DNA from: Streptomyces sp. MP131-18
Lineage (GTDB): Bacteria; Actinomycetota; Actinomycetes; Streptomycetales; Streptomycetaceae
Assembly (NCBI RefSeq): GCF_001984575.1
Contig: NZ_LZNS01000001.1
Coordinates: forward strand, 339,307-403,306
Length of the DNA stretch: 64,000 bases
Reading direction: 5' to 3'
The notes under the pieces were generated by a model. It had not been told where the DNA came from. It worked only from the letters and a program-made list of their open reading frames with translations, and searched no databases. Within the stretch, counting starts at the first letter, position 1; each line of letters opens with the position of its first letter. The translations under genes and the position numbers were made by a program. This document shows, one piece after another, positions 39,557 through 49,914 of this stretch.

Positions 39557-41419
39557 TCAGGAGGTCTCCTCCGGCACCGGGTAGGGGAAGGAGTCCTGGA
39601 CGCCGATCCGGTCGTACTCCATCCGCGACGTGTCGAAGCCGTCCTGCCAGTTGGCGTTCTCCACGGTGTTGCACTGGTAGCTCTGGTACTTGTCGTCGGT
39701 GACCTCGCCGACCTCGATGTCGGTGAAGCTGAATCCGCAGCCGCCGGCGTCCATGTGCACGCCCCGGGTGCCGCTGTCGGGCATCGAATCGTCCGGGATG
39801 ACGTCGCCGATGACGACCTGCCGCACGTGATTGTCGATCGGGTGCGGCTCGGCGTTGTCGACGCCGTAGGTGTAGAAGGCGCCCATGTCGCCGCTGTCCA
39901 GCCCGACTTCCTCGATGCGCAGGTACTCGAAGACGTTGTCGCGGGCGTAGTTGTCCTCCGCCGCGACCTCGGGGCGCACTTCGAGGCTCACCCCGTAGCG
40001 GGCGCTGTGCTCGATGTGGCTGTAACTGACCTCGTTACGGCCGGTGTTCATCAGCTCCACGCCCGCGGCGTCGCCGGGCACCAGCTCCCCGTAGTGCGTG
40101 ATGTAGTTGTTGGTGAAGAGGTGGCCGTAGGAGGTGTCGCCCTCGCCCGGGTAGGGGCCCTCGACCTTGATGCCGTCCGCGCCGATGTTCTCCAGCAGGC
40201 TGCCCTGGACGGTCAGCCCCTCGTTGGCGAAGAGGGCGTAGACGGCGTGGTAGCCCGTGTCGGAGATGCGCATGTTCGACAGGGTGATGTCGCGGCTGTT
40301 GGTCACCGTCACCGCGCCGAAGCGGTTGCGGGGCATCTCGATCTGCCGGTCGTACTCCGGATACTCGTGCCGGTAACCCGAGTCGCCCGCGCTGATCCAG
40401 CCGAAGCGGTACCAGTCGACGAAGTCGCTGTACTGAAGGGCGAGACCGTCGAACGTGATGTTCTCGACCCGCTCCTCCGGGCTGCTGCCCGCCACTTCGA
40501 TGAGGGTGTCCGCGACCGGCGCCATGATCTCGACGTCCTCGATGTTGCCGCGCGGCTTGTAGTAGAGCTGGCCCTCGTCGTAGTCGAGGTAGTACTCGCC
40601 GGCCTGGTCGAGGAAGTCCAGGGAGTTCTGAAGGAAGTACCGTGATCCGCTCCGGCTGTTGATCAGCGCGTAGCGGGTCCAGTACTCCATGGTGATCTGG
40701 TTGTCCTCCCAGGTGGGGTTCTGGATCGGCACGGTGTCGGTGAACCAGCTCCAGCTGCCGCCCGACCAGATGAACACCTCGGCGTCGTCGAGGTCCCAGC
40801 TCGGGTCCCAGTCACCGGGGTTGGAGTACAGCCACTGGCGCACTCCTTCCTTCTCCGGCTCCTTCAGCACGGAGAACAGGTACGGCGCCCACTCCTCGTC
40901 CGAGGCGCGGTTGGGGTAGCGGGCGGTGGTGGCCCGCCGGCCGTCCTCGAAAAGCGTGTGGAACGGGTTGTCGGTGCCGACGTCGGCGCGGTAGATGCCG
41001 TCCTGGTACTCCTCCCAGTCGGTGACCCGCTCGGCGCCGACGACGCGCGCCTCGCCGGGGCCGTCGTAGCTGCGGTAGATCACCTCGTGGCCGCGCGTTC
41101 CCGAGTCGTTCTCGTCGAACTCCAGGGCCTGGTCCACCTGGTAGTCACCGGCCCGGAGGTTCACCACGATGTCGCAGCGCATCCGCCGGGTCAGGCCCTC
41201 CTCGCGCAGGTGGTCGCGGGCGTGCTCGATCGTCTGCCAGGCGTCGTCCTTGTCGCCCTCCGCGCGGTCGCTGCCGTCCGGGGAGACGAAGAACTGCCGG
41301 GGCTCGCACCCATCGGCGGCGGTGACGGCGTCCCCGGGCAGTGCGGCGCCGGCGACCAGCAGCAGGGTGCTCGCCGCCAGTACCGGAAGGCTCCGGTTCG
41401 GTCTACGGGTTCTGAGCAA
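39557..41419 (-). CDS. Secreted right-handed beta-helix glycan-active protein (GH141/GH120-like)
   Basis: This 620-aa protein has a Sec signal peptide (RRPNRSLPVLAASTLLLVAG) cut near residue 36 and then the motif FFVSPDGSDRAEGDKDDAWQ typical of beta-helix glycosidases and lyases. Parallel beta-helix repeats fill residues about 250-600 (ITFDGLALQYSDF, ITLSNMRISDTGYHAVY, GLTVQGSLLENIGADGIKVEG). The architecture resembles GH141 and related families, which include an alpha-L-fucosidase acting on rhamnogalacturonan II; the exact family needs a profile search. I take TTG 41419 as the start because AAGGAG lies 8 bases upstream and the signal peptide begins there. Confidence 0.72.
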   Translation of the reverse strand: MLRTRRPNRSLPVLAASTLLLVAGAALPGDAVTAADGCEPRQFFVSPDGSDRAEGDKDDAWQTIEHARDHLREEGLTRRMRCDIVVNLRAGDYQVDQALEFDENDSGTRGHEVIYRSYDGPGEARVVGAERVTDWEEYQDGIYRADVGTDNPFHTLFEDGRRATTARYPNRASDEEWAPYLFSVLKEPEKEGVRQWLYSNPGDWDPSWDLDDAEVFIWSGGSWSWFTDTVPIQNPTWEDNQITMEYWTRYALINSRSGSRYFLQNSLDFLDQAGEYYLDYDEGQLYYKPRGNIEDVEIMAPVADTLIEVAGSSPEERVENITFDGLALQYSDFVDWYRFGWISAGDSGYRHEYPEYDRQIEMPRNRFGAVTVTNSRDITLSNMRISDTGYHAVYALFANEGLTVQGSLLENIGADGIKVEGPYPGEGDTSYGHLFTNNYITHYGELVPGDAAGVELMNTGRNEVSYSHIEHSARYGVSLEVRPEVAAEDNYARDNVFEYLRIEEVGLDSGDMGAFYTYGVDNAEPHPIDNHVRQVVIGDVIPDDSMPDSGTRGVHMDAGGCGFSFTDIEVGEVTDDKYQSYQCNTVENANWQDGFDTSRMEYDRIGVQDSFPYPVPEETS

Positions 41420-41496
41420 AACGGGATCTCCTTGCGTGTCGGAACGTCGGCTTCTCCGGTTCCGGGAAATGGGGGTTCGGAGGTGGGGCGGGGTCG

Positions 41497-42264
41497 TCAG
41501 GCGGAGTTCCGGTCGCGCCAGCGCTCGTACTCGGCACGGGTCTCTGCGGTCAGCGGGTAGTAGTCGGCGAGTGCTCCTCCCTCCTCGATCCGGGCGCGGC
41601 TGAAGCGCTCCCACTCCTCGTGTTCGCGGGCGGCGGCGACCACCGCCTCGGCGCGCCGCCGCGGCACCACCACGGCTCCGTCGTCGTCGGCCACCACCAG
41701 GTCGCCGGGGAGCACGAGGACGCCGCCGCAGGCGATCGGCACGTCGTAGGCCCAGGGGAAGAGCTCCGCCTGCGAGGCGTAGTGCGGGGTGGCGCCGGTC
41801 GACCAGATGGGGAGGCCGGTCTGGCGCACCCGGGGGAGGTCGCGGATGCAGCCGTCGACGACGATCCCGGCGCCGCCCTTGCGCTGGAAGTAGCGCACGA
41901 GCATGTCGCCGAAGCAGCCGGTGTGCGTGCTGCCGTATGCCTGGACCATGAGCACGTCACCGGGCTCGACGGCTTCGAGCACCGCCCACAGGGCGGTGTG
42001 CCGTTCGACGTACTCGTGGCCGAGGCCCGAGGCGACGTCCTCGCGCTGCGGCATGAACTGGAGGGTGCGGACGCGGCCGACGACCGCCTGCCCGGCCGTC
42101 AGCGGGCGGGGCCCGGAGACGAACGTGCGCCGGATGCCCTGGGCGTGGAGCTTGGCGCACGCGGTGGCCGACGAGATGCCGGACAGCTCGCGCAGGAGTT
42201 CTGGGGCGGCGGTGCCTGGTGTGGCGCCGCGCACGGGCAAGTCCCACACGGGGTGGTCCTCCAC
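41497..42264 (-). CDS. RraA-family (HMG/oxaloacetate aldolase-like) protein
   Basis: The 255-aa protein matches the RraA/demethylmenaquinone-methyltransferase-like fold, with EPGDVLMVQAYGS, the Gly-x-Arg-Asp active-site segment GIVVDGCIRDLPRV and VLPGDLVVADDDGAVVVP. Catabolic members are divalent-metal pyruvate aldolases or decarboxylases for 4-hydroxy-2-oxo acids. Here it could take a branched or sugar-derived keto acid. GTG 42264 has AGGAG 7 bases upstream and fits better than ATG 42279, which overlaps that site. It lies between the beta-helix gene and an uncharacterised gene, all leftward. Confidence 0.82.
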   Translation of the reverse strand: MEDHPVWDLPVRGATPGTAAPELLRELSGISSATACAKLHAQGIRRTFVSGPRPLTAGQAVVGRVRTLQFMPQREDVASGLGHEYVERHTALWAVLEAVEPGDVLMVQAYGSTHTGCFGDMLVRYFQRKGGAGIVVDGCIRDLPRVRQTGLPIWSTGATPHYASQAELFPWAYDVPIACGGVLVLPGDLVVADDDGAVVVPRRRAEAVVAAAREHEEWERFSRARIEEGGALADYYPLTAETRAEYERWRDRNSA

Positions 42265-42330
42265 TGACGCTCTCCTCATCGTTCCGCTGGTTCTGGTCGT
42301 GTCGGGTGCTCGGGTGGTGGCACGCCGGGG

Positions 42331-44304
42331 TCAGGGGGCGGGGCGGGCCGGCCGGTGGTGGGCCGCCGGGTAGGCGCGCGGGGTCAGGCGGAGTTCGAGG
42401 CGGACCCGGCGGCCGGGTGGCAGCTCCACCTCGAGCCGGGGGCCGCCGACGGGCAGTTCGCGGGTACCGGCGGCGGTTTCCGGCGCGGTGTACGCGCGCG
42501 GGTCGCCGGGGTAGCCGGGCCCGGCGGCGCCGGCGCGGAGGGTGTCGAGGCGGACCGTCTCGATGCGGTGCTCGCCGAACGACCCGGCGCGCACCACGAC
42601 GCGGCGGGTGCCGGTGAGGCCGGTGTGGACGAGTTGCACGCAGGTGCGGTCGGGGCCGATGTCGTCGACCAGGGCGGCGATGTCGGCCGGGAGCCCCGGC
42701 CTGCCGCGCCGCGCGTCCTCGTAGGCCAGGCGCAGCGGCAGCAGCCCGCCGTTGTACAGCACCTGGGGGGTCCCGGTGGTCAGGTGCAGCAGGGCTTCGG
42801 TGAGCACGGGGTTGTGGCGTTGCCAGTGGTGGATGTCCAGGCTGCCCGGGGTGGTGGTGTCGGCGGCGATCAGCGCCATGCGCCGTTCCACCTGGGCGAG
42901 GGCGACGCCGAGGACGGCCGTCGGGTAGTCCGGGTTCTCGCCGCGCAGGTAGGCGAGCCAGGGGGCCTCGTGCCCCGCCTCCTCCTTGTTGCGGAAGCCG
43001 CGCACCGTGCGCCAGTCGTAACCGCCGGCCGCGCGCAGCCGCTCGATGCGCTCCGCGTCCTCGGCCGCCGCTCCGGCGTGCCACAGCCACACGGGCAGGG
43101 CGAGCTGGGGCGGCTGGTAGTCGAACCAGCCGCCGTCGGCGTACCGGTTGGGCACCAGCAGGGTGGGGCGGGCCGCGTCCTCGCCGAGTTCGGCGTGCCA
43201 CCGGTCGCTGATGCTCATCTCGGTGTCCGTGACGGCGCCGGTCACCGCCTGCCGGGCCACGAGGTCGAGCGGGCCGCGGCCGATGTCGAGCCCGTCGGTG
43301 CGGCCGGTCAGCAGCACGCTGTTGACCGCGGCGATCACGGCGGCGTTGCCGACGCTGTAGAGGCCGTGGGGCCAGGTCCAGCCGTAGTTGCCGCCGTACC
43401 AGCGGCCGCCGTGCAGTTCCCCCACGCGGCCGGAGGGGCCCACGTTGTCCGGCAGGACACCACCGCACTCCTCGGCGCGCCGGCGCCAGGCGGCGACGTA
43501 GCCGAGCGCCCAGTCGCGGTAGCGGTCGTCGTGGCCGTACAGCCAGGCGTTGGTGGCCAGGCTGGTGGCGGCGAGGTTGACGACGGCGTCACCGCGGCCG
43601 ATCCGCTCCCGCATGGCGGCGCCCATGCGGGCGGCGTTCGCCGGATCGGCCAGGTCCGCCCACGAGGAGATGCCCGGCAGGTCGCGCAGCGGCAGTCCGT
43701 ACGGCCGCATCGAGGCCAGGCCGGTGCCGTAGGAGGCCCACTCCTCGTTGATCCCGTAACGGGGGCCGCCTGCGCCGTTGTGCGGGGCGCGGATCACGGC
43801 CGCTTCCGGGTCGTAGTTCCCCGTCGGTGAGGACGGCAGGTACAGCTCGGCGAAGCGGTGGGCGCGCGCCTCGAAGTGCTCGTCACCCGGGTCGGCGGCG
43901 CAGATGCCGTAGAACAGCAGCATCGACTCCCCGAGGTGGAACCAGTCGTAGCCACGCTCGAACTCGTCGACGACGTAGCCGCGTTCGGTCAGCTGGGCGG
44001 TGACGCCCAGCCAGTGGTGCTTGGCGGCGTCGAGAAGGTCGTCGGCGCCGCCGAGCTGGTAGAGGGTCGGCCAGTTGAAGAACGCCTCGTAGAAGTCGTC
44101 GGCCCCGTCACGGCTGGCCGAGGGCCCCTCGTAGCGCAGGCTGCCGTCGGGCGCGCAGTAGCGGCCGGCGAAGGCGCGCCAGGCTTCGTCGAGCGCGTCG
44201 AAGAGCCTGCGCTGGAGCACGGCCCACAGGGGCGGCACACCGACGGGAACGGAGGCGGTGACGCGCGGCGGAGCCGCCTCCGCATCTCCCGGCCCATGGC
44301 TCAT
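42331..44304 (-). CDS. Uncharacterised large protein of the glycan locus
   Basis: I cannot assign this 657-aa protein. It is soluble, without a signal peptide. Residues about 25-540 are helical with Trp/Tyr/Gly-rich turns such as DDFYEAFFNWPTLYQLGG, ERGYDWFHLGESMLLFYG, WYGGNYGWTWPHGLYSVG and ADGGWFDYQPPQLALPVWL, consistent with an alpha/alpha barrel. The last 120 residues (VQLVHTGLTGTRRVVVRAGS onward) look like a beta-sandwich. This is a common plan for glycosidases and lyases. ATG 44304 follows GAGGAGG. It is the first gene after the divergent HTH-GntR fusion regulator and precedes the RraA-family gene by 66 bp. Confidence 0.7.
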   Translation of the reverse strand: MSHGPGDAEAAPPRVTASVPVGVPPLWAVLQRRLFDALDEAWRAFAGRYCAPDGSLRYEGPSASRDGADDFYEAFFNWPTLYQLGGADDLLDAAKHHWLGVTAQLTERGYVVDEFERGYDWFHLGESMLLFYGICAADPGDEHFEARAHRFAELYLPSSPTGNYDPEAAVIRAPHNGAGGPRYGINEEWASYGTGLASMRPYGLPLRDLPGISSWADLADPANAARMGAAMRERIGRGDAVVNLAATSLATNAWLYGHDDRYRDWALGYVAAWRRRAEECGGVLPDNVGPSGRVGELHGGRWYGGNYGWTWPHGLYSVGNAAVIAAVNSVLLTGRTDGLDIGRGPLDLVARQAVTGAVTDTEMSISDRWHAELGEDAARPTLLVPNRYADGGWFDYQPPQLALPVWLWHAGAAAEDAERIERLRAAGGYDWRTVRGFRNKEEAGHEAPWLAYLRGENPDYPTAVLGVALAQVERRMALIAADTTTPGSLDIHHWQRHNPVLTEALLHLTTGTPQVLYNGGLLPLRLAYEDARRGRPGLPADIAALVDDIGPDRTCVQLVHTGLTGTRRVVVRAGSFGEHRIETVRLDTLRAGAAGPGYPGDPRAYTAPETAAGTRELPVGGPRLEVELPPGRRVRLELRLTPRAYPAAHHRPARPAP

Positions 44305-44346
44305 GGCTGCCTCCTCGACTTGGGCGATCATGGTTTAGTGGGTCAA

Positions 44347-44393
44347 TAATCGAGCAACGATAATTTGATAGATTCACGTCAATCGCCCGTCAA
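44347..44393 (-). promoter_or_regulatory. Promoter with palindrome before the 44304 gene
   Basis: On the minus strand TTGACG (44393-44388) and TATCAA (44370-44365) are 17 bp apart. An imperfect palindrome, TAATCG (44347-44352) with CGATAA (44358-44363), lies directly downstream of the -10 box. Its neighbour is the HTH-GntR fusion gene, a plausible ligand for this site. Confidence 0.5.
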
Positions 44394-44468
44394 GGCGCAG
44401 GACGGAACTGAAAAATTGATGACGGCGACATTGCCGCCCCCGCCGAGCGAGTCATAAATTTCTGCATC

Positions 44469-45686
44469 ATGGAGACACCAGAGCCCGTGACCGATCCCCG
44501 TTTGCCGAGGTTTCCGCAGCTGAGCGAGGAGGACCGCGCGACCCTGCGCGAGTGGTCCTCGCGACCGCCCGAGGCACTGCGCATGCGCAGCCGCATGGTG
44601 CTGGCCTGTGCCGAGGGGCTGACGAACGCCGAGATCGCCAGGCGCCTCCAGGTCAGCCCCGCGACGGTGGCCAAGTGGCGGGAGCGCTACCTGAGCCGGG
44701 GAGTGGCCGGGCTCGGCGACGCCCCCCGGTCGGGGCGCCCGCGCAGCGGCAGCCGGCAGGACGCGGAGAGCCGTATCGCCGACGTGCTCGAACAGACCCG
44801 GCGCGGCGACCCCGTTCCCTCCACCCGCGCGCTCTCCCGGGCGCTCGGCCTGTCCCAGTCCACGGTCGCCCGGATCTGGCAGGAGCAGCAGCGCGAGCAG
44901 GAGGAGGCGCGGCCGTCGGCGGACGCCGCCCCCGCCGACGCCGCCCCCGCCGACGGCGGCGACACGGCCCTCGCCACGCCGCTGCCCAGGCAGTTGCTCT
45001 CCGACCACGTGTACGCGCTGCTGCGCGGCTGGATCGTCGGGGGCGAACTGCTGCCCGGCCAGCGGCTCGTCGAGTCGCACATCGCCCGCCGGGTCGGCAC
45101 CAGCCAGGCGCCCGCCCGCGAGGCGATCAAGCGGCTCGCGCACGAGGGGCTCGTGATCTCCCAGTCGCACCGGGGCACGTACGTCGCACAGGTCTCCGAG
45201 CAGCAGGCGCAGGACGTCCGCGATATCCGGGTGATGTTCGAGGAGTACGCGGCGCGCAGGGCGAGCGGGCACCTGGACGGCGCACACCTGCGGCTGCTCA
45301 CCGACGACGTGGAACGGCTGCGCCGGGCGGCCGAGGACGGCGACATCGGCGACTTCCGGGATGCCGACATGTCGTTCCACCGCCATGTCTGCGAAGCGGC
45401 GGGGAACTCGGCGCTGACCCGCCTCTGGCGCATGATCGAGTCCAGCATGTGGGGCCTGCACGTGCTGGGCAACCCCCGTTACACCGGCGACTGGCGGGCG
45501 ATGGCCGAGTACCACGCCGAGCTGCTGGACGCCCTGCGGGCCGGCGACCCGGACACGGCGGGGCCGATGTTCGCGGCGCACGCCGCCGGCGAGGCGACCC
45601 GCTACCACCGGGAGCACCCCGCGCCCGCGCACCACCCGACCGGTGAACCCGGTCCCTTACCCTGTCCCCCGCACCGGGAGTCGTGA
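44469..45686 (+). CDS. Fusion regulator: IS630-type HTH region plus GntR/FCD
   Basis: Residues about 12-140 match the N-terminal DNA-binding region of IS630-family transposases: LSEEDRATLREW, RMRSRMVLACAEGLTNAEIA, SPATVAKWRERYLSRGVAGL and a second HTH in STRALSRALGLSQSTVARIW. There is no DDE nuclease domain. After an Ala/Pro/Asp linker (about 147-165, encoded by a 15-bp direct repeat) comes a complete FadR-type GntR regulator: winged helix (about 175-240, HIARRVGTSQAPAREAIKRL) and FCD domain (about 250-385, DADMSFHRHVCEAAGN). The total is 405 aa. No ribosome binding site precedes ATG 44469, and CATAAAT lies about 10 bases upstream, so a leaderless message is possible. It faces the 44304 gene and overlaps the start region of a GH28 gene. 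Confidence 0.83.
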   Translation: METPEPVTDPRLPRFPQLSEEDRATLREWSSRPPEALRMRSRMVLACAEGLTNAEIARRLQVSPATVAKWRERYLSRGVAGLGDAPRSGRPRSGSRQDAESRIADVLEQTRRGDPVPSTRALSRALGLSQSTVARIWQEQQREQEEARPSADAAPADAAPADGGDTALATPLPRQLLSDHVYALLRGWIVGGELLPGQRLVESHIARRVGTSQAPAREAIKRLAHEGLVISQSHRGTYVAQVSEQQAQDVRDIRVMFEEYAARRASGHLDGAHLRLLTDDVERLRRAAEDGDIGDFRDADMSFHRHVCEAAGNSALTRLWRMIESSMWGLHVLGNPRYTGDWRAMAEYHAELLDALRAGDPDTAGPMFAAHAAGEATRYHREHPAPAHHPTGEPGPLPCPPHRES

Positions 45687-45688
45687 CC

Positions 45689-47113
45689 ATGAGCCGTCCC
45701 GCACGCAGAAAGGTCCTGCGGCTGGGCGCCGCGGCGGCCGCCACCGTTCCCCTGGCCGGCGCCGCAGGCGTCCGCGACGCGTACGGAGCCCCCGGAGTCA
45801 CCGGGGCCACCACGTGCCCGCGCTTTCCCCGAGCCTGGTTCCCGATCACCGACTACGGCGCCGTCGGCGACGGCGCGAGTGACTGCACGGCCGCCATCCG
45901 GGCGGCGGTGCACGCCTGCCACGCCGCCGGCGGCGGGCACGTACTGGTCCCGCCCGGCGACTGGGCCACCGGCGCGATCCACCTGCGCAGCGGCGTCGAC
46001 CTGCACGTCGCCGAGGGCGCGACGGTGCTCTTCGACACCGATCCGGCGGCCTACCTGCCCCTCGTTCTCACGCGCTGGCAGGGGGTCGAGGCGTGGAACT
46101 ACTCCCCCCTGATCTATGCCTACCGGCAGCACGACATCGCCGTCACCGGCCGCGGCGTCCTCGACGCGCGGGGCGACATGGAGCACTGGTGGCCGTGGAA
46201 GGGGTCGGGCCAGTACGGCTGGGAGCCGGGCATGCCAAGCGAGCTGGCGGACTGGGGCGACCTGGAGCGGTGGGGGGCGGAGGGCGTCCCGGTGGCGGAC
46301 CGGGTCTTCGGAGAAGGGCACTACCTGCGGCCCAGCTTCCTCCAGCCGCACTCCTGCCGGAACGTCCTCGTCGAGGGCGTCACCCTGCGCAACTCCCCCT
46401 TCTGGAACATCCATCCCGTCCTGAGCCGCGACGTCACCGTCCGGGACGTGCGGATCGAGTCGCAGGGCCCCAACAGCGACGGCTGCAACCCCGACTCGTG
46501 CCGGAACGTCACCATCCGCCGGGTCACCTTCGCCACCCATGACGACTGCATCGCCATCAAGTCCGGCCGCGACCAGGACGGCTGGCGGGTCGGCGTCCCG
46601 TCCCGCGACATCCTCGTCGAGGACTGCGTCTACCTCAGCGGCGGCGCCGCGGTGGCGATCGGCAGCGAGATGAGCGGCGGCGTCTCCGACGTGACCGCCC
46701 GCCGGCTGTACCTGCCACGCGACCCGGACCTCGAAGAGGACTCGGTGGGCTGGGTCCTCAACGTCAAGTCGACTCCCACCCGCGGCGGTTACGTGCGCGA
46801 TGTCCGGGTGACGGACGTCGACGCGCCCGCCTGGACATACGTGCCGTTCGAGGTGACCTTCCAGTACGCGGGCGGTACCGGCGGCGAGCACTTCGCCGAG
46901 GTCTCGCGGCTCTCGGCGGCGCGCTGGTCCCTGGGCGGCCCCTGCGAGTACCCGGTGCGCGTCCGCGCCCGCCCGGCGGCTCCCGTGCGCGACGTGCGGC
47001 TGGTCGGCCTGACCTTCGACGACGCCGCGCAGGACATCCTCCTGGAGTCCGTCACCGGCCTCCGCATGCACGACGTCGTCGTCAACGGCGAACCCCGGGA
47101 AGGGCCGCTCTGA
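45689..47113 (+). CDS. Secreted GH28-like protein with altered active site
   Basis: This 474-aa protein has a twin-arginine signal (ARRKVLRLGAAAAATVPLAG) and a GH28 beta-helix. PNSDGC keeps the first catalytic Asp (Asp264) and HDDC the Asp pair, but the GHG histidine is a glycine in LSGGAAVAIGSEM and the RIK arginine is Asn in LNVKST. It is thus a third GH28 paralogue, and the second lacking both signature residues. ATG 45689 (GGGAG 8 bases upstream) is preferred to GTG 45683, which would overlap the regulator's stop. It is probably co-transcribed with the fusion regulator. Confidence 0.86.
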   Translation: MSRPARRKVLRLGAAAAATVPLAGAAGVRDAYGAPGVTGATTCPRFPRAWFPITDYGAVGDGASDCTAAIRAAVHACHAAGGGHVLVPPGDWATGAIHLRSGVDLHVAEGATVLFDTDPAAYLPLVLTRWQGVEAWNYSPLIYAYRQHDIAVTGRGVLDARGDMEHWWPWKGSGQYGWEPGMPSELADWGDLERWGAEGVPVADRVFGEGHYLRPSFLQPHSCRNVLVEGVTLRNSPFWNIHPVLSRDVTVRDVRIESQGPNSDGCNPDSCRNVTIRRVTFATHDDCIAIKSGRDQDGWRVGVPSRDILVEDCVYLSGGAAVAIGSEMSGGVSDVTARRLYLPRDPDLEEDSVGWVLNVKSTPTRGGYVRDVRVTDVDAPAWTYVPFEVTFQYAGGTGGEHFAEVSRLSAARWSLGGPCEYPVRVRARPAAPVRDVRLVGLTFDDAAQDILLESVTGLRMHDVVVNGEPREGPL

Positions 47114-47121
47114 CGCCCGGG

Positions 47122-47149
47122 CCGGCCGCCCGCTCGCCCGGGCGGCCGG
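47122..47149. terminator. Bidirectional hairpin between convergent genes
   Basis: CCGGCCGCCCG (47122-47132) pairs perfectly with CGGGCGGCCGG (47139-47149) around a 6-base loop. It sits in the 37-bp gap between the convergent GH28 and esterase genes and could end both transcripts. Confidence 0.65.
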
Positions 47150-47150
47150 G

Positions 47151-48365
47151 CTACGGAAGATGTCCGCAGGCCACGTCGAGGTCCCACAGGACGACGGAGA
47201 GGGCGAAGGGACTGATGGTGTGGTCCCCGTGGGTGGCGTCCTCCAGCAGTTCCCAGTGTCCATTACCGATCACCTCGACGCGGTGCCGTACCACCGGCTC
47301 GTATGCGCGGTGCCCGACGGCGTTGAAGCAGCACTCGTCGAAGCGGTTGAGGATCTGCAACTGCCGGCGGTGCTCTCCCACGGCGGCCAGGGCGTACAGG
47401 TCCATGAAGTCGGAGATGCCGTAGAACGCCGGGTGTCTGTCCCTGCGCTGCTCCCAGTCGCCGGTCGTGGGGCTCGGCTTGGGCGGCGCGGAGCGCAGGA
47501 AGAACGGCAGCGAGCCGGCGGCCGGATAGCTGCGCGTCACCCGGGGATCGAGGGCCGGGTAGACCGTGGCGGCCCAGCCGCCGCCCGACAGGCCGATCAT
47601 CTGTACCGAGGACGGCCGGTACTCCCGCCGCACGTGATTCATCGCGACGGTCAGCGGCTCCAGGAAGAACCGCAGCGTCGAGAACCCCGGCGTCTCCCAC
47701 GGCCCGAGGTCGTCGTGCGACTCCACGGTGACCGTTCGGGCCGGATCGTCGGGGTCCCGGAGTTCCTTGGGGTTCCAGTGGTAGAACGGCATGGCGAAGA
47801 GCAGCACCGCGTAGCCGGCGTCGAGCAGCGCCTGCGCGGTGCGCGTCATGGTGCCGGGCTCCTCGCCGTGGCCGTTGTGGTAGAACGCGAAGCGCGTGTG
47901 GTCGCTGTGGCGCGGCAGGAGCAGGAAGACGACCGACCGCAGCTCGAACGGCATGCGCACGGTGAGCCGGTCGACGCGGCGCACGCCTTCGAACGCCGGC
48001 AGTTCGGGGGCGGCGACGCCGCGCTCCACCGCAGGCAGCGACGTGGGCAGCAGGCCGTCGGCGGACTTCCAGACCTCCGCGACCAGGGCGGCTCTGAGGG
48101 TGCGCGCGTCCTCCTCGGTGTGCACCGTCATCAGCTCCTCGCAGTCGACGCCGACGGCCTCCTGCGGCAGCGCCTTGTAGTCGATGCCGTGGGCGGCGGC
48201 CACCTCCGCGTTGACGGGGGCCACCGGCCGCGGCGGGGGCGGCGCCGGAACGGGCCGGGACGCCGCGGCGTGCGCGGCGCCGGCCGCCGGTCCTGCGGCG
48301 GCCGCGGCGGTGGCCGCCGTCGTGCCGAGGGTGCCGATGAGCGCTCTGCGGGATACCGGGGACAT
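47151..48365 (-). CDS. Secreted alpha/beta-hydrolase esterase
   Basis: The 404-aa protein has a twin-arginine signal (SRRALIGTLGTTAATAAAAAG, residues about 5-25) and an Ala/Pro-rich segment to about residue 50. The alpha/beta-hydrolase core has the nucleophile elbow MIGLSGGGW (Ser260), an oxyanion region FAFYHNGHGEE and a late His in DATHGDHTISPFAL. It probably removes methyl or acetyl esters from pectic or other plant glycans outside the cell, given the pectin methylesterase gene directly upstream; no family-level name is certain. Confidence 0.78.
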   Translation of the reverse strand: MSPVSRRALIGTLGTTAATAAAAAGPAAGAAHAAASRPVPAPPPPRPVAPVNAEVAAAHGIDYKALPQEAVGVDCEELMTVHTEEDARTLRAALVAEVWKSADGLLPTSLPAVERGVAAPELPAFEGVRRVDRLTVRMPFELRSVVFLLLPRHSDHTRFAFYHNGHGEEPGTMTRTAQALLDAGYAVLLFAMPFYHWNPKELRDPDDPARTVTVESHDDLGPWETPGFSTLRFFLEPLTVAMNHVRREYRPSSVQMIGLSGGGWAATVYPALDPRVTRSYPAAGSLPFFLRSAPPKPSPTTGDWEQRRDRHPAFYGISDFMDLYALAAVGEHRRQLQILNRFDECCFNAVGHRAYEPVVRHRVEVIGNGHWELLEDATHGDHTISPFALSVVLWDLDVACGHLP

Positions 48366-48453
48366 GAGGCGATCTCCTGCCGTGGTCGTGGTCGCCGGGT
48401 TCGAGGGGGCGCGGGGTCCGGACGGCGGGTCCGGGCGACGGGGCGGGCGCCGG

Positions 48454-49914
48454 CTACGGCCGGCGCGGGTCCCAGCCGTCGAGCAGGGTCGCGGGGTCGC
48501 GCCATCGCTCGGCCTCGCCCGCGTCGAGCTGCTGCGAGCAGGGCAGCCGGTCGCCGACGTCCACCGGGGCGCCGGTCAGGTCCGTGCTGCCGTGCTCCCA
48601 GAAGCGCAGCCGGTCCGCCGTGGCACAGTCGGCGTCCGTGAGGGCCCAGCCCACGGGGGCGATGTGGGCGTCCATGGCCGAGTCGATGAAGACGACCTGG
48701 CTGCCGAGGAAACGGCTGTCGATGCGGCCGAGCAGCACCGACCCCTCGGGCACCGACGGGGCGCGGGTCAGCCGGGTGTCGACGAAAACGTTGCCGGGGC
48801 CGTCCGGGGCGTTGCGTATCTGGGTCACGTATCCGACGTCGAGGGAGCGCAGTTCGGAATCCTGGACGAACACGCCGCCGGTGCCCCAGACGAAGTCGAC
48901 ATCGCCCTCGACATAGCTGTCGGTCACGAAGGCCCGGCCCTGGAGCCGCAGGCTGTCCTGGTGGCTGAGCACGGCGACGCGCTCCAGCACGATGCGGTCC
49001 CCGTTGCCGCGGAACGCCTCGGCCTGGGAACCGCCGTCGGGCGTGAGGTTGTGCACGGTGAGGTCTTCCAGCCGGAAGTCGTCCGCGTCCACACCGAACG
49101 CCGCCCGCCAGCAGTTGAAGCGGTCGGGGTGCGGGAGCACGCGGCGCGGGCAGTAGCTCTGCCGGGCCGGCACGTCGGCCATGGCGGCGTCGCCGTTGAG
49201 CACGCTGTTGTTCGGATACCCGATCACGGTGCGGCCGGCGCCGCTGCCGCCGACCGTGAGGTGCGGCTTCGTCTGCGGCACGTAGACGATCTCGCGGTAC
49301 ATCCCGGGTGCCACGTCGATGCGGACGTCCTCGGTGTTGTCCTCGGGAACGAAGTCGACGGCACCCTGGACGGTGCAGAAGTCACCGCCGCCCGACTGGT
49401 CGACCGTCAGCTCCCGGGCGCCGGGCGCCGGCCCCTCCTGGGTACGGAACCGCCAGGTCTGCGGGTCCTCGATGCCCGCCCGGCCGCGGACGAAGCCCTC
49501 GTCCATGGTGACGTAGTACTCCTGGCCGGGGTCCAGGACGTAGTGCAGGTGGACCGAAACGGTCCGGCCGTCCACCACCACCGGCTCGTAGAACCAGCGG
49601 TGCACCTCGCCGTAGTCCGACAGCGCGCCACCGATGCTGCGCTGGTACGTGCCCGGGTCGGCGAGGTCGATGTTGTCGACCAGCGTCCCGTCGGCGTGGT
49701 GCACCTGCAACTGACCGCGGTCGCCCAGTTGTACGGGGCCGTCGAAGGTCAGCCGCAGGGCGGTGTCCACGCAGACGGGATCGGCGAGCCCGCGCGGCTG
49801 GAGGTCCGGCGCGGGACGGGCCGCGGGGGTGTCGGCGGCGGCCTGCTGGGAGACGGCCGGCACGAGGACCGTGAGCACCCCGGCGAGTGCCACGAGTGGG
49901 CGGAACAGGCGCAT
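48454..49914 (-). CDS. Secreted CE8 pectin methylesterase
   Basis: This 486-aa protein has a Sec signal peptide (residues 1-27, ending VSQQAAA), an N-terminal beta-sandwich-like region (about 40-165) and a CE8 beta-helix. Active-site motifs are GSQAEAFRGNGDR, LSHQDSLRL with the acid/base Asp, VEGDVDFVWGTG with the nucleophile Asp, and LLGRID with the conserved Arg. It demethylates homogalacturonan and so prepares it for pectate lyase and GH28 enzymes. ATG 49914 is supported by AAGGAG 8 bases upstream. It diverges from the oxidoreductase/esterase fusion gene. Confidence 0.92.
   Translation of the reverse strand: MRLFRPLVALAGVLTVLVPAVSQQAAADTPAARPAPDLQPRGLADPVCVDTALRLTFDGPVQLGDRGQLQVHHADGTLVDNIDLADPGTYQRSIGGALSDYGEVHRWFYEPVVVDGRTVSVHLHYVLDPGQEYYVTMDEGFVRGRAGIEDPQTWRFRTQEGPAPGARELTVDQSGGGDFCTVQGAVDFVPEDNTEDVRIDVAPGMYREIVYVPQTKPHLTVGGSGAGRTVIGYPNNSVLNGDAAMADVPARQSYCPRRVLPHPDRFNCWRAAFGVDADDFRLEDLTVHNLTPDGGSQAEAFRGNGDRIVLERVAVLSHQDSLRLQGRAFVTDSYVEGDVDFVWGTGGVFVQDSELRSLDVGYVTQIRNAPDGPGNVFVDTRLTRAPSVPEGSVLLGRIDSRFLGSQVVFIDSAMDAHIAPVGWALTDADCATADRLRFWEHGSTDLTGAPVDVGDRLPCSQQLDAGEAERWRDPATLLDGWDPRRP

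Follow-up and report, generated by a model that had tools for sequence, protein, structure and literature searches.

The gene described here raises the question of what the DNA-binding part of a transposase does at the front of a bacterial transcription regulator, and how it came to be there. It lies in the window, the whole stretch of DNA that was analysed (64,000 nucleotides of Streptomyces sp. MP131-18), where an open reading frame of 405 codons was confirmed at 44469-45686 on the forward strand.

Architecture and start of the fused gene

The gene and the parts of its predicted product are as follows.

44487..45686, + strand: fused regulator coding sequence; probable start GTG 44487, 399 aa; in-frame alternative ATG 44469
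44526..44714, + strand: first IS630-type HTH (three-helix); Pfam HTH_29/HTH_23, AlphaFold2 helices 14-76, hhalign to IS630, dN/dS 0.09-0.12
44754..44906, + strand: second IS630-type HTH; Pfam HTH_32, AlphaFold2 helices 90-140, dN/dS 0.14-0.30
44898..44984, + strand: variable Ala/Pro/Asp linker with a 15-bp tandem repeat (44922-44955); pLDDT <50, dN/dS 0.81-0.99
44985..45194, + strand: GntR winged HTH; Pfam GntR, dN/dS 0.18-0.22
45204..45596, + strand: FCD ligand-binding domain; Pfam FCD, invariant columns, fold matches to FCD regulators

On the 405-codon frame, Pfam recognises HTH_29 at residues 42-93 (1.6e-18), HTH_32 at 66-137 (3.4e-10), GntR at 177-239 (3e-20) and FCD at 249-371 (1.7e-23). 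PF00392 and PF07729 exceed their cut-offs, and the GntR winged HTH is directly adjoined by an all-helical FCD domain, which is the criterion for the FadR/FCD subfamily of the GntR family. By the domain features tested, the protein is a GntR-FCD regulator. Its paired N-terminal HTH is a feature of IS630 transposases, which belong to the Tc1/mariner superfamily. The match to the NCBIfam IS630 transposase profile covers only positions 2-118 of 299 (3.5e-19), and profile-profile alignment by hhalign with four intact IS630 transposases is confined to residues 11-134 (E 3.6e-30, 45% identity). No DDE catalytic domain is present in the fusion, the two matches stopping at position 118 of the profile and at residue 134, and no terminal inverted repeats starting CTAGTG were found flanking it, only a sequence upstream that resembles their inner core. 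Because both the DDE domain and the mobile ends are missing, the protein is not an IS630 transposase; it also differs from these enzymes in its single chromosomal locus and its attached sensor. The initial annotation had described a two-HTH transposase N-terminus without the DDE domain, joined to an intact FadR-type GntR on its C-terminal side, and both parts of that description are borne out.

AlphaFold2 predicts three-helix domains at residues 14-76 and 90-140 and a disordered linker at 142-166, followed by a winged HTH and then an all-helical FCD domain. The model is of moderate confidence (pLDDT 68.6, pTM 0.41) and leaves the arrangement of the domains undefined. Over its C-terminal 230 residues the fusion resembles, in sequence and fold, GntR/FCD regulators of the FadR and VanR types (PmiR 7xp0, TM0439 3sxy/3fms, Atu1419/VanR 6za3), which have the same winged HTH and an FCD domain whose Asp/His metal-site residues are conserved. 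The alignment with these solved structures is limited to the GntR-FCD part, and their chains of about 200-280 aa leave no room for a paired HTH. D294, H298, H343 and H365 (399-aa numbering) are invariant across orthologues and are candidate metal ligands; we take them to be the Asp and three His of the metal/ligand site in FCD structures. Among PDB entries, the N-terminal profile finds its best match, a weak one (E 0.002), in the DNA-binding domain of SETMAR.

The linker had been described as repeat-encoded. This strain does have the repeat (15 bp x 2.3, 100%), but it is absent from the 91% identical copy of Streptomyces sp. SBT349, and linker sequence and length differ among orthologues while both HTHs are conserved; the repeat is a strain-level detail. 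The start proposed at 44469 probably has to be moved. The ATG start codons of the other orthologues align with GTG 44487, preceded by GGAG at 44471, and ATG 44469 is common only to the closest relative, SBT349. On the strength of this alignment, translation probably begins at GTG 44487 and not at ATG 44469.

Conservation, selection and origin of the fusion

Orthologues of full length were found in 11 of 393 Streptomyces genomes and at 13 loci of a broader genome contig collection (partly the same genomes). A second actinobacterial family has them in 7 of the 250 genomes searched, spread over four genera. The search for proteins combining the HTH, GntR and FCD parts, which the initial annotation had recommended, has thus yielded full-length orthologues in at least 25 distinct actinobacterial genomes (18 Streptomyces/Kitasatospora and 7 of the other family); no relative of the fusion was found in the viral contigs searched. 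Because full-length orthologues are found in many genomes of two families, an assembly accident can be ruled out as the source of the fusion.

Nei-Gojobori estimates of dN/dS, made over short stretches in comparison with the two closest relatives, come to 0.17 and 0.13 in the HTH pair, 0.18 and 0.22 in GntR and 0.15 and 0.18 in FCD; the linker gives 0.99 and 0.81. The median over all usable pairs, many of them near saturation, is 0.34 for the HTH pair versus 1.05 for the linker. The N-terminal HTH pair is under purifying selection and none is evident on the linker; the HTH helices are among the most conserved stretches of the fusion. These data bear on whether the upstream part of the frame is used at all. 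An internal translation start near residue 165 would give an ordinary GntR protein, and unfused relatives do begin shortly before a conserved LLSD-VY motif. However, orthologues keep the open frame, the start codon and a Shine-Dalgarno-like sequence before the N-terminal part, their alignment shows neither a Met nor a Val conserved around residue 165, and selection on the N-terminal part is strong. Since that part appears to be translated and is under selection, a short GntR protein starting there is unlikely, and we give it hardly any credence.

The 18 fusions included in a tree of IS630-type HTH pairs cluster as a single clade (100/98). In the GntR-FCD tree the fusions are again united in one clade (100/95), and there their nearest kin are unfused regulators with 45-51% identity. 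A sister relationship between the captured HTHs and the IS630 group with the matching repeat type has only weak support (84/60). Judged by the single old clade in the trees of both halves, the fusion arose once, long ago. It meets the criteria for a domesticated transposase, namely single copy, conserved locus, purifying selection and lost mobility. The proposal that a transposase part was domesticated is supported by the single old clade, by purifying selection on the N-terminal HTHs and by loss of the catalytic domain; the host function itself is inferred. Most likely, an IS630 element inserted upstream of a gntR gene, after which the DDE domain and right end would have been lost, with the left end, HTHs, linker and GntR-FCD staying in frame.

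Other fusions of this type exist. A second GntR-FCD fusion of 617 aa (L125/L108) is placed elsewhere in both trees, on a long branch in the GntR tree. In L125 (1107-2957, reverse strand) the whole IS630-like middle region aligns to the DDE domain, whose three catalytic residues are all lost in L125/L108 (alignment read by eye), and CTGAGTCAGAAGTTCG begins 31 nt before the ATG. As far as its sequence and placement go, this is an independent fusion event. The same HTH pair is joined to ROK-family sugar regulators in several Streptomyces, this genome included; outside the window, at G000:C1:3472939-3473316 (L075), an IS630-type HTH pair is followed by a middle region and a ROK regulator with its own winged HTH. 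Two ROK subtypes can be told apart among the Streptomyces fusions (L118-L120/L075 and L121-L124), and inspection by eye revealed no terminal-repeat-like sequence upstream of ROK fusions. Two Streptomyces loci (L103 and L109) encode stand-alone IS630-like proteins with decayed catalytic regions, which are possibly domesticated DNA-binding proteins.

Neighbouring genes and upstream DNA elements

The neighbours of the gene and the elements in the divergent intergenic region are listed here.

39557..41614, - strand: GH141/right-handed beta-helix gene; at most other fusion loci an orthologue of it is the divergent neighbour
42331..44331, - strand: divergent 666-aa gene, no Pfam family; probable target
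44339..44361, + strand: site 1, composite operator candidate TGGGTCA-ATA-ATCGAGCAACGAT; conserved upstream of fusions, no binding data
44349..44361, no strand assigned: GntR-type palindrome ATCGn5CGAT inside site 1 (ATCGAGCAACGAT); sole copy in the 64-kb window
44447..44462, + strand: site 3, IS630 terminal-repeat-like core GCGAGTCATAAATTTC; best match to the IS630-end weight matrix in the window
45683..47113, + strand: GH28 polygalacturonase-like gene, directly downstream with a 4-bp overlap; probable target or co-transcribed

Genes of the GH141/beta-helix, RraA-like, GH28 and pectinesterase types are clustered at 39557-49914, and from its gene content this region would be a pectin/rhamnogalacturonan-type degradation locus. 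S. hoynatensis (L049) has a counterpart of the 666-aa gene at the same place. The GH141-type divergent neighbour is mostly kept at the other fusion loci, which presumably also often carry genes for GH95, enolase, dehydrogenase, aldo/keto reductase and amidohydrolase (read from the sequences, without database matches). The neighbour genes at fusion loci point to plant cell-wall saccharides with fucose, rhamnose or galacturonate as the substrate. Since the Asp and three His of the FCD domain are invariant, an acidic sugar is the natural guess for its ligand, by inference only.

Conservation upstream of the fusions is patchy. The site 1 pattern TGGGTCA-N3-ATCGn5CGAT is kept in 23 fusion loci of the two families, with some degenerate cases; TGGGTC stands next to the palindrome in all 23 of the fusion upstreams examined, and TGRGTCA in none of the 13 unfused-sister upstreams examined for it. 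Over 264 kb, ATCGn5CGAT has 23 copies, all in fusion upstreams or at loci of unfused sister regulators. It lies upstream of 7 of 17 unfused GntR sisters, is missing within 400 nt of the other 10, and is degenerate in six fusion orthologues (L060, L057, L067 and L069-L071). Around the unfused GntR-FCD genes and their neighbours in L033, L034, L035 and L036 it is clustered, often as overlapping pairs, and these clusters may represent a ready operator motif of the unfused subfamily. We read the palindrome as the putative site of the GntR half, binding being inferred. Because site 1 is the only site in the genome with fewer than three mismatches, control is probably local. A regulon beyond the locus was considered and rejected, the 11 other genome matches with three mismatches being little above a reversed-pattern control (4). 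We likewise rejected the idea that a CTAGTG bordering site 1 is a transposon tip, because the window and its closest relatives have TTAGTG there and G530 has TTAATG.

Site 3 adjoins the start codon and reads GAGTCATAA, then an RTTC-like sequence. The element GAGTCAtAArTTC stands about 30-41 nt upstream of fusion start codons and matches the inner part of the IS630 terminal repeat (CTGAGTCAGAGATTCG). Intact Streptomyces IS630 ends read CTAGTGACCTGAGTCAGAGATTCG, and their left end is placed such that CTGAGTC starts some 30 nt ahead of the transposase start codon. A weight matrix was built from the inner 16 bases of 12 IS630 ends, with no fusion sequence included. In all Streptomyces fusions tested, its best upstream match falls between -38 and -41; G530 has it at -29 and the independent fusion L125 at -31. 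Between 0 and 2 of 400 shuffles reach the upstream score (window 1/400, several orthologues 0/400), with the exception of L057 (23/400). Site 3 has the top score of the whole 64-kb window on both strands. When all positions on both strands of eight fusion loci (window included) were scored, the top seven (14.5-19.1) were fusion upstream sites and the next was 12.9. Upstream scores in the second family are 7.6-19.1, L155-L157 being weak, and unfused sisters, which lack the terminal-repeat core, score no more than 8.3. A matrix of the full-length 24-nt terminal repeat scores poorly upstream of fusions, and only the inner core scores well. The outer CTAGTG tip has been lost there, as one would expect had binding been retained without cleavage.

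Because each half of the protein has a matching conserved DNA element upstream, it looks as though a captured transposase DNA-binder kept its own binding site as an operator. The long composite site that had been suspected is supported by site 1 together with the terminal-repeat-like element near the start, without binding data. The IS630 HTH pair might instead be a passive leftover (a spacer, a dimerisation aid or a source of nonspecific DNA affinity), with the GntR winged HTH alone regulating at ATCGn5CGAT. Unfused sisters manage without the pair, 7 of the 17 having the palindrome upstream, and AlphaFold2 shows no defined contact between the halves. Yet the HTH pair has a dN/dS of 0.13-0.17 and highly conserved helices beside a linker near 1, and the IS630-like DNA elements are conserved upstream of fusions only, so that we regard passive retention as distinctly unlikely.

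The start-proximal element could also be a promoter and not an operator, that is, GAGTCATAA would be the regulator gene's promoter inherited from the insertion element. Its position 30-40 nt before the start codon and its A+T-rich 3' side fit a promoter. Nevertheless, no sigma-70-like match was found in the intergenic region, a second copy of TGGGTCA lies beside the GntR palindrome, and the conserved portion is the inner terminal repeat, which we infer to be the expected target of the transposase HTHs. In Tc1/mariner elements the transposase HTHs bind the inner part of the terminal repeat. On balance we consider an inherited promoter rather unlikely, though it cannot be set aside, and prefer an operator for the HTH pair. 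Most Streptomyces have 108-110 bp between sites 1 and 3; the distance is 95 bp in G530 and 118 bp in S. hoynatensis, which has a 10-bp insertion (about one helical turn). The insertion in S. hoynatensis (L060) lies inside site 1, and the phase of TGGGTCA relative to the start-proximal site is kept. Looping between the two sites is possible but unproven.

Proposed mode of action and significance

We think it likely that the protein is a metabolite-responsive one-component regulator of a pectin/rhamnogalacturonan-type saccharide locus, derived by GntR-FCD capture of an IS630 paired HTH. This proposal is built on the architecture, single old origin, conservation in two families and selection on both DNA-binding parts that the sequences show, and on conserved DNA elements of two kinds between the divergent genes; DNA binding, ligand and repression are all inferred, there being no binding, expression or ligand data. 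The FCD domain would bind an acidic sugar derivative and a dimer of the GntR winged HTH would bind ATCGn5CGAT, with the IS630 HTH pair on TGGGTCA beside the palindrome and on GAGTCAtAArTTC near its own start, an element that would be a relic of the ancestral insertion element's left terminal repeat. We propose a ligand-released autorepressor. Without ligand it would occupy the composite operator, possibly spanning the 95-118 bp or so that separate the two sites, and keep both its own gene and the divergent gene repressed; ligand binding would then release it. A wider reading is more tentative, and we hold it somewhat short of an even chance: IS630 HTHs would have been captured recurrently (by GntR-FCD at least twice and by ROK, with the left repeat kept as operator in the GntR cases), and a dimer of the window's protein would bridge sites about 110 bp apart, reusing the end-pairing geometry of the transposase as a DNA loop.

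SETMAR is a domesticated mariner transposase fusion in which a transposon DNA-binding domain is combined with a host domain, and vertebrates are known to have gained new transcription factors by capturing the DNA-binding domains of transposases. By the mode of action proposed here, the fusion would work much as these factors do. Those proteins are eukaryotic and were formed with splicing, whereas the fusion described here is a bacterial, ligand-responsive regulator with a local putative operator. No description of a bacterial regulator joining a transposase HTH to a ligand sensor was found in the open-access literature searched, which is weak evidence of absence. Prokaryotic hosts do recruit HTH regulators of mobile elements, Ner/SfsB for example (PMC8987985); in the parts of this review available to us the examples are phage and toxin-antitoxin regulators, and the term IS630 does not occur.

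The IS630 terminal repeat resembles the putative operator core of the fusion, and living genomes show a series from intact IS630 through catalytically dead stand-alone proteins and dead full-length GntR and ROK fusions to the minimal HTH-GntR-FCD protein with a remnant repeat. The locus shows how a regulator could gain specificity, with two DNA-binding modules stacked on adjacent sites, and it offers a testable case of a mobile element supplying protein and operator together. If the recurrent captures are as proposed, protein domain and binding site would have been recruited together in the GntR cases.
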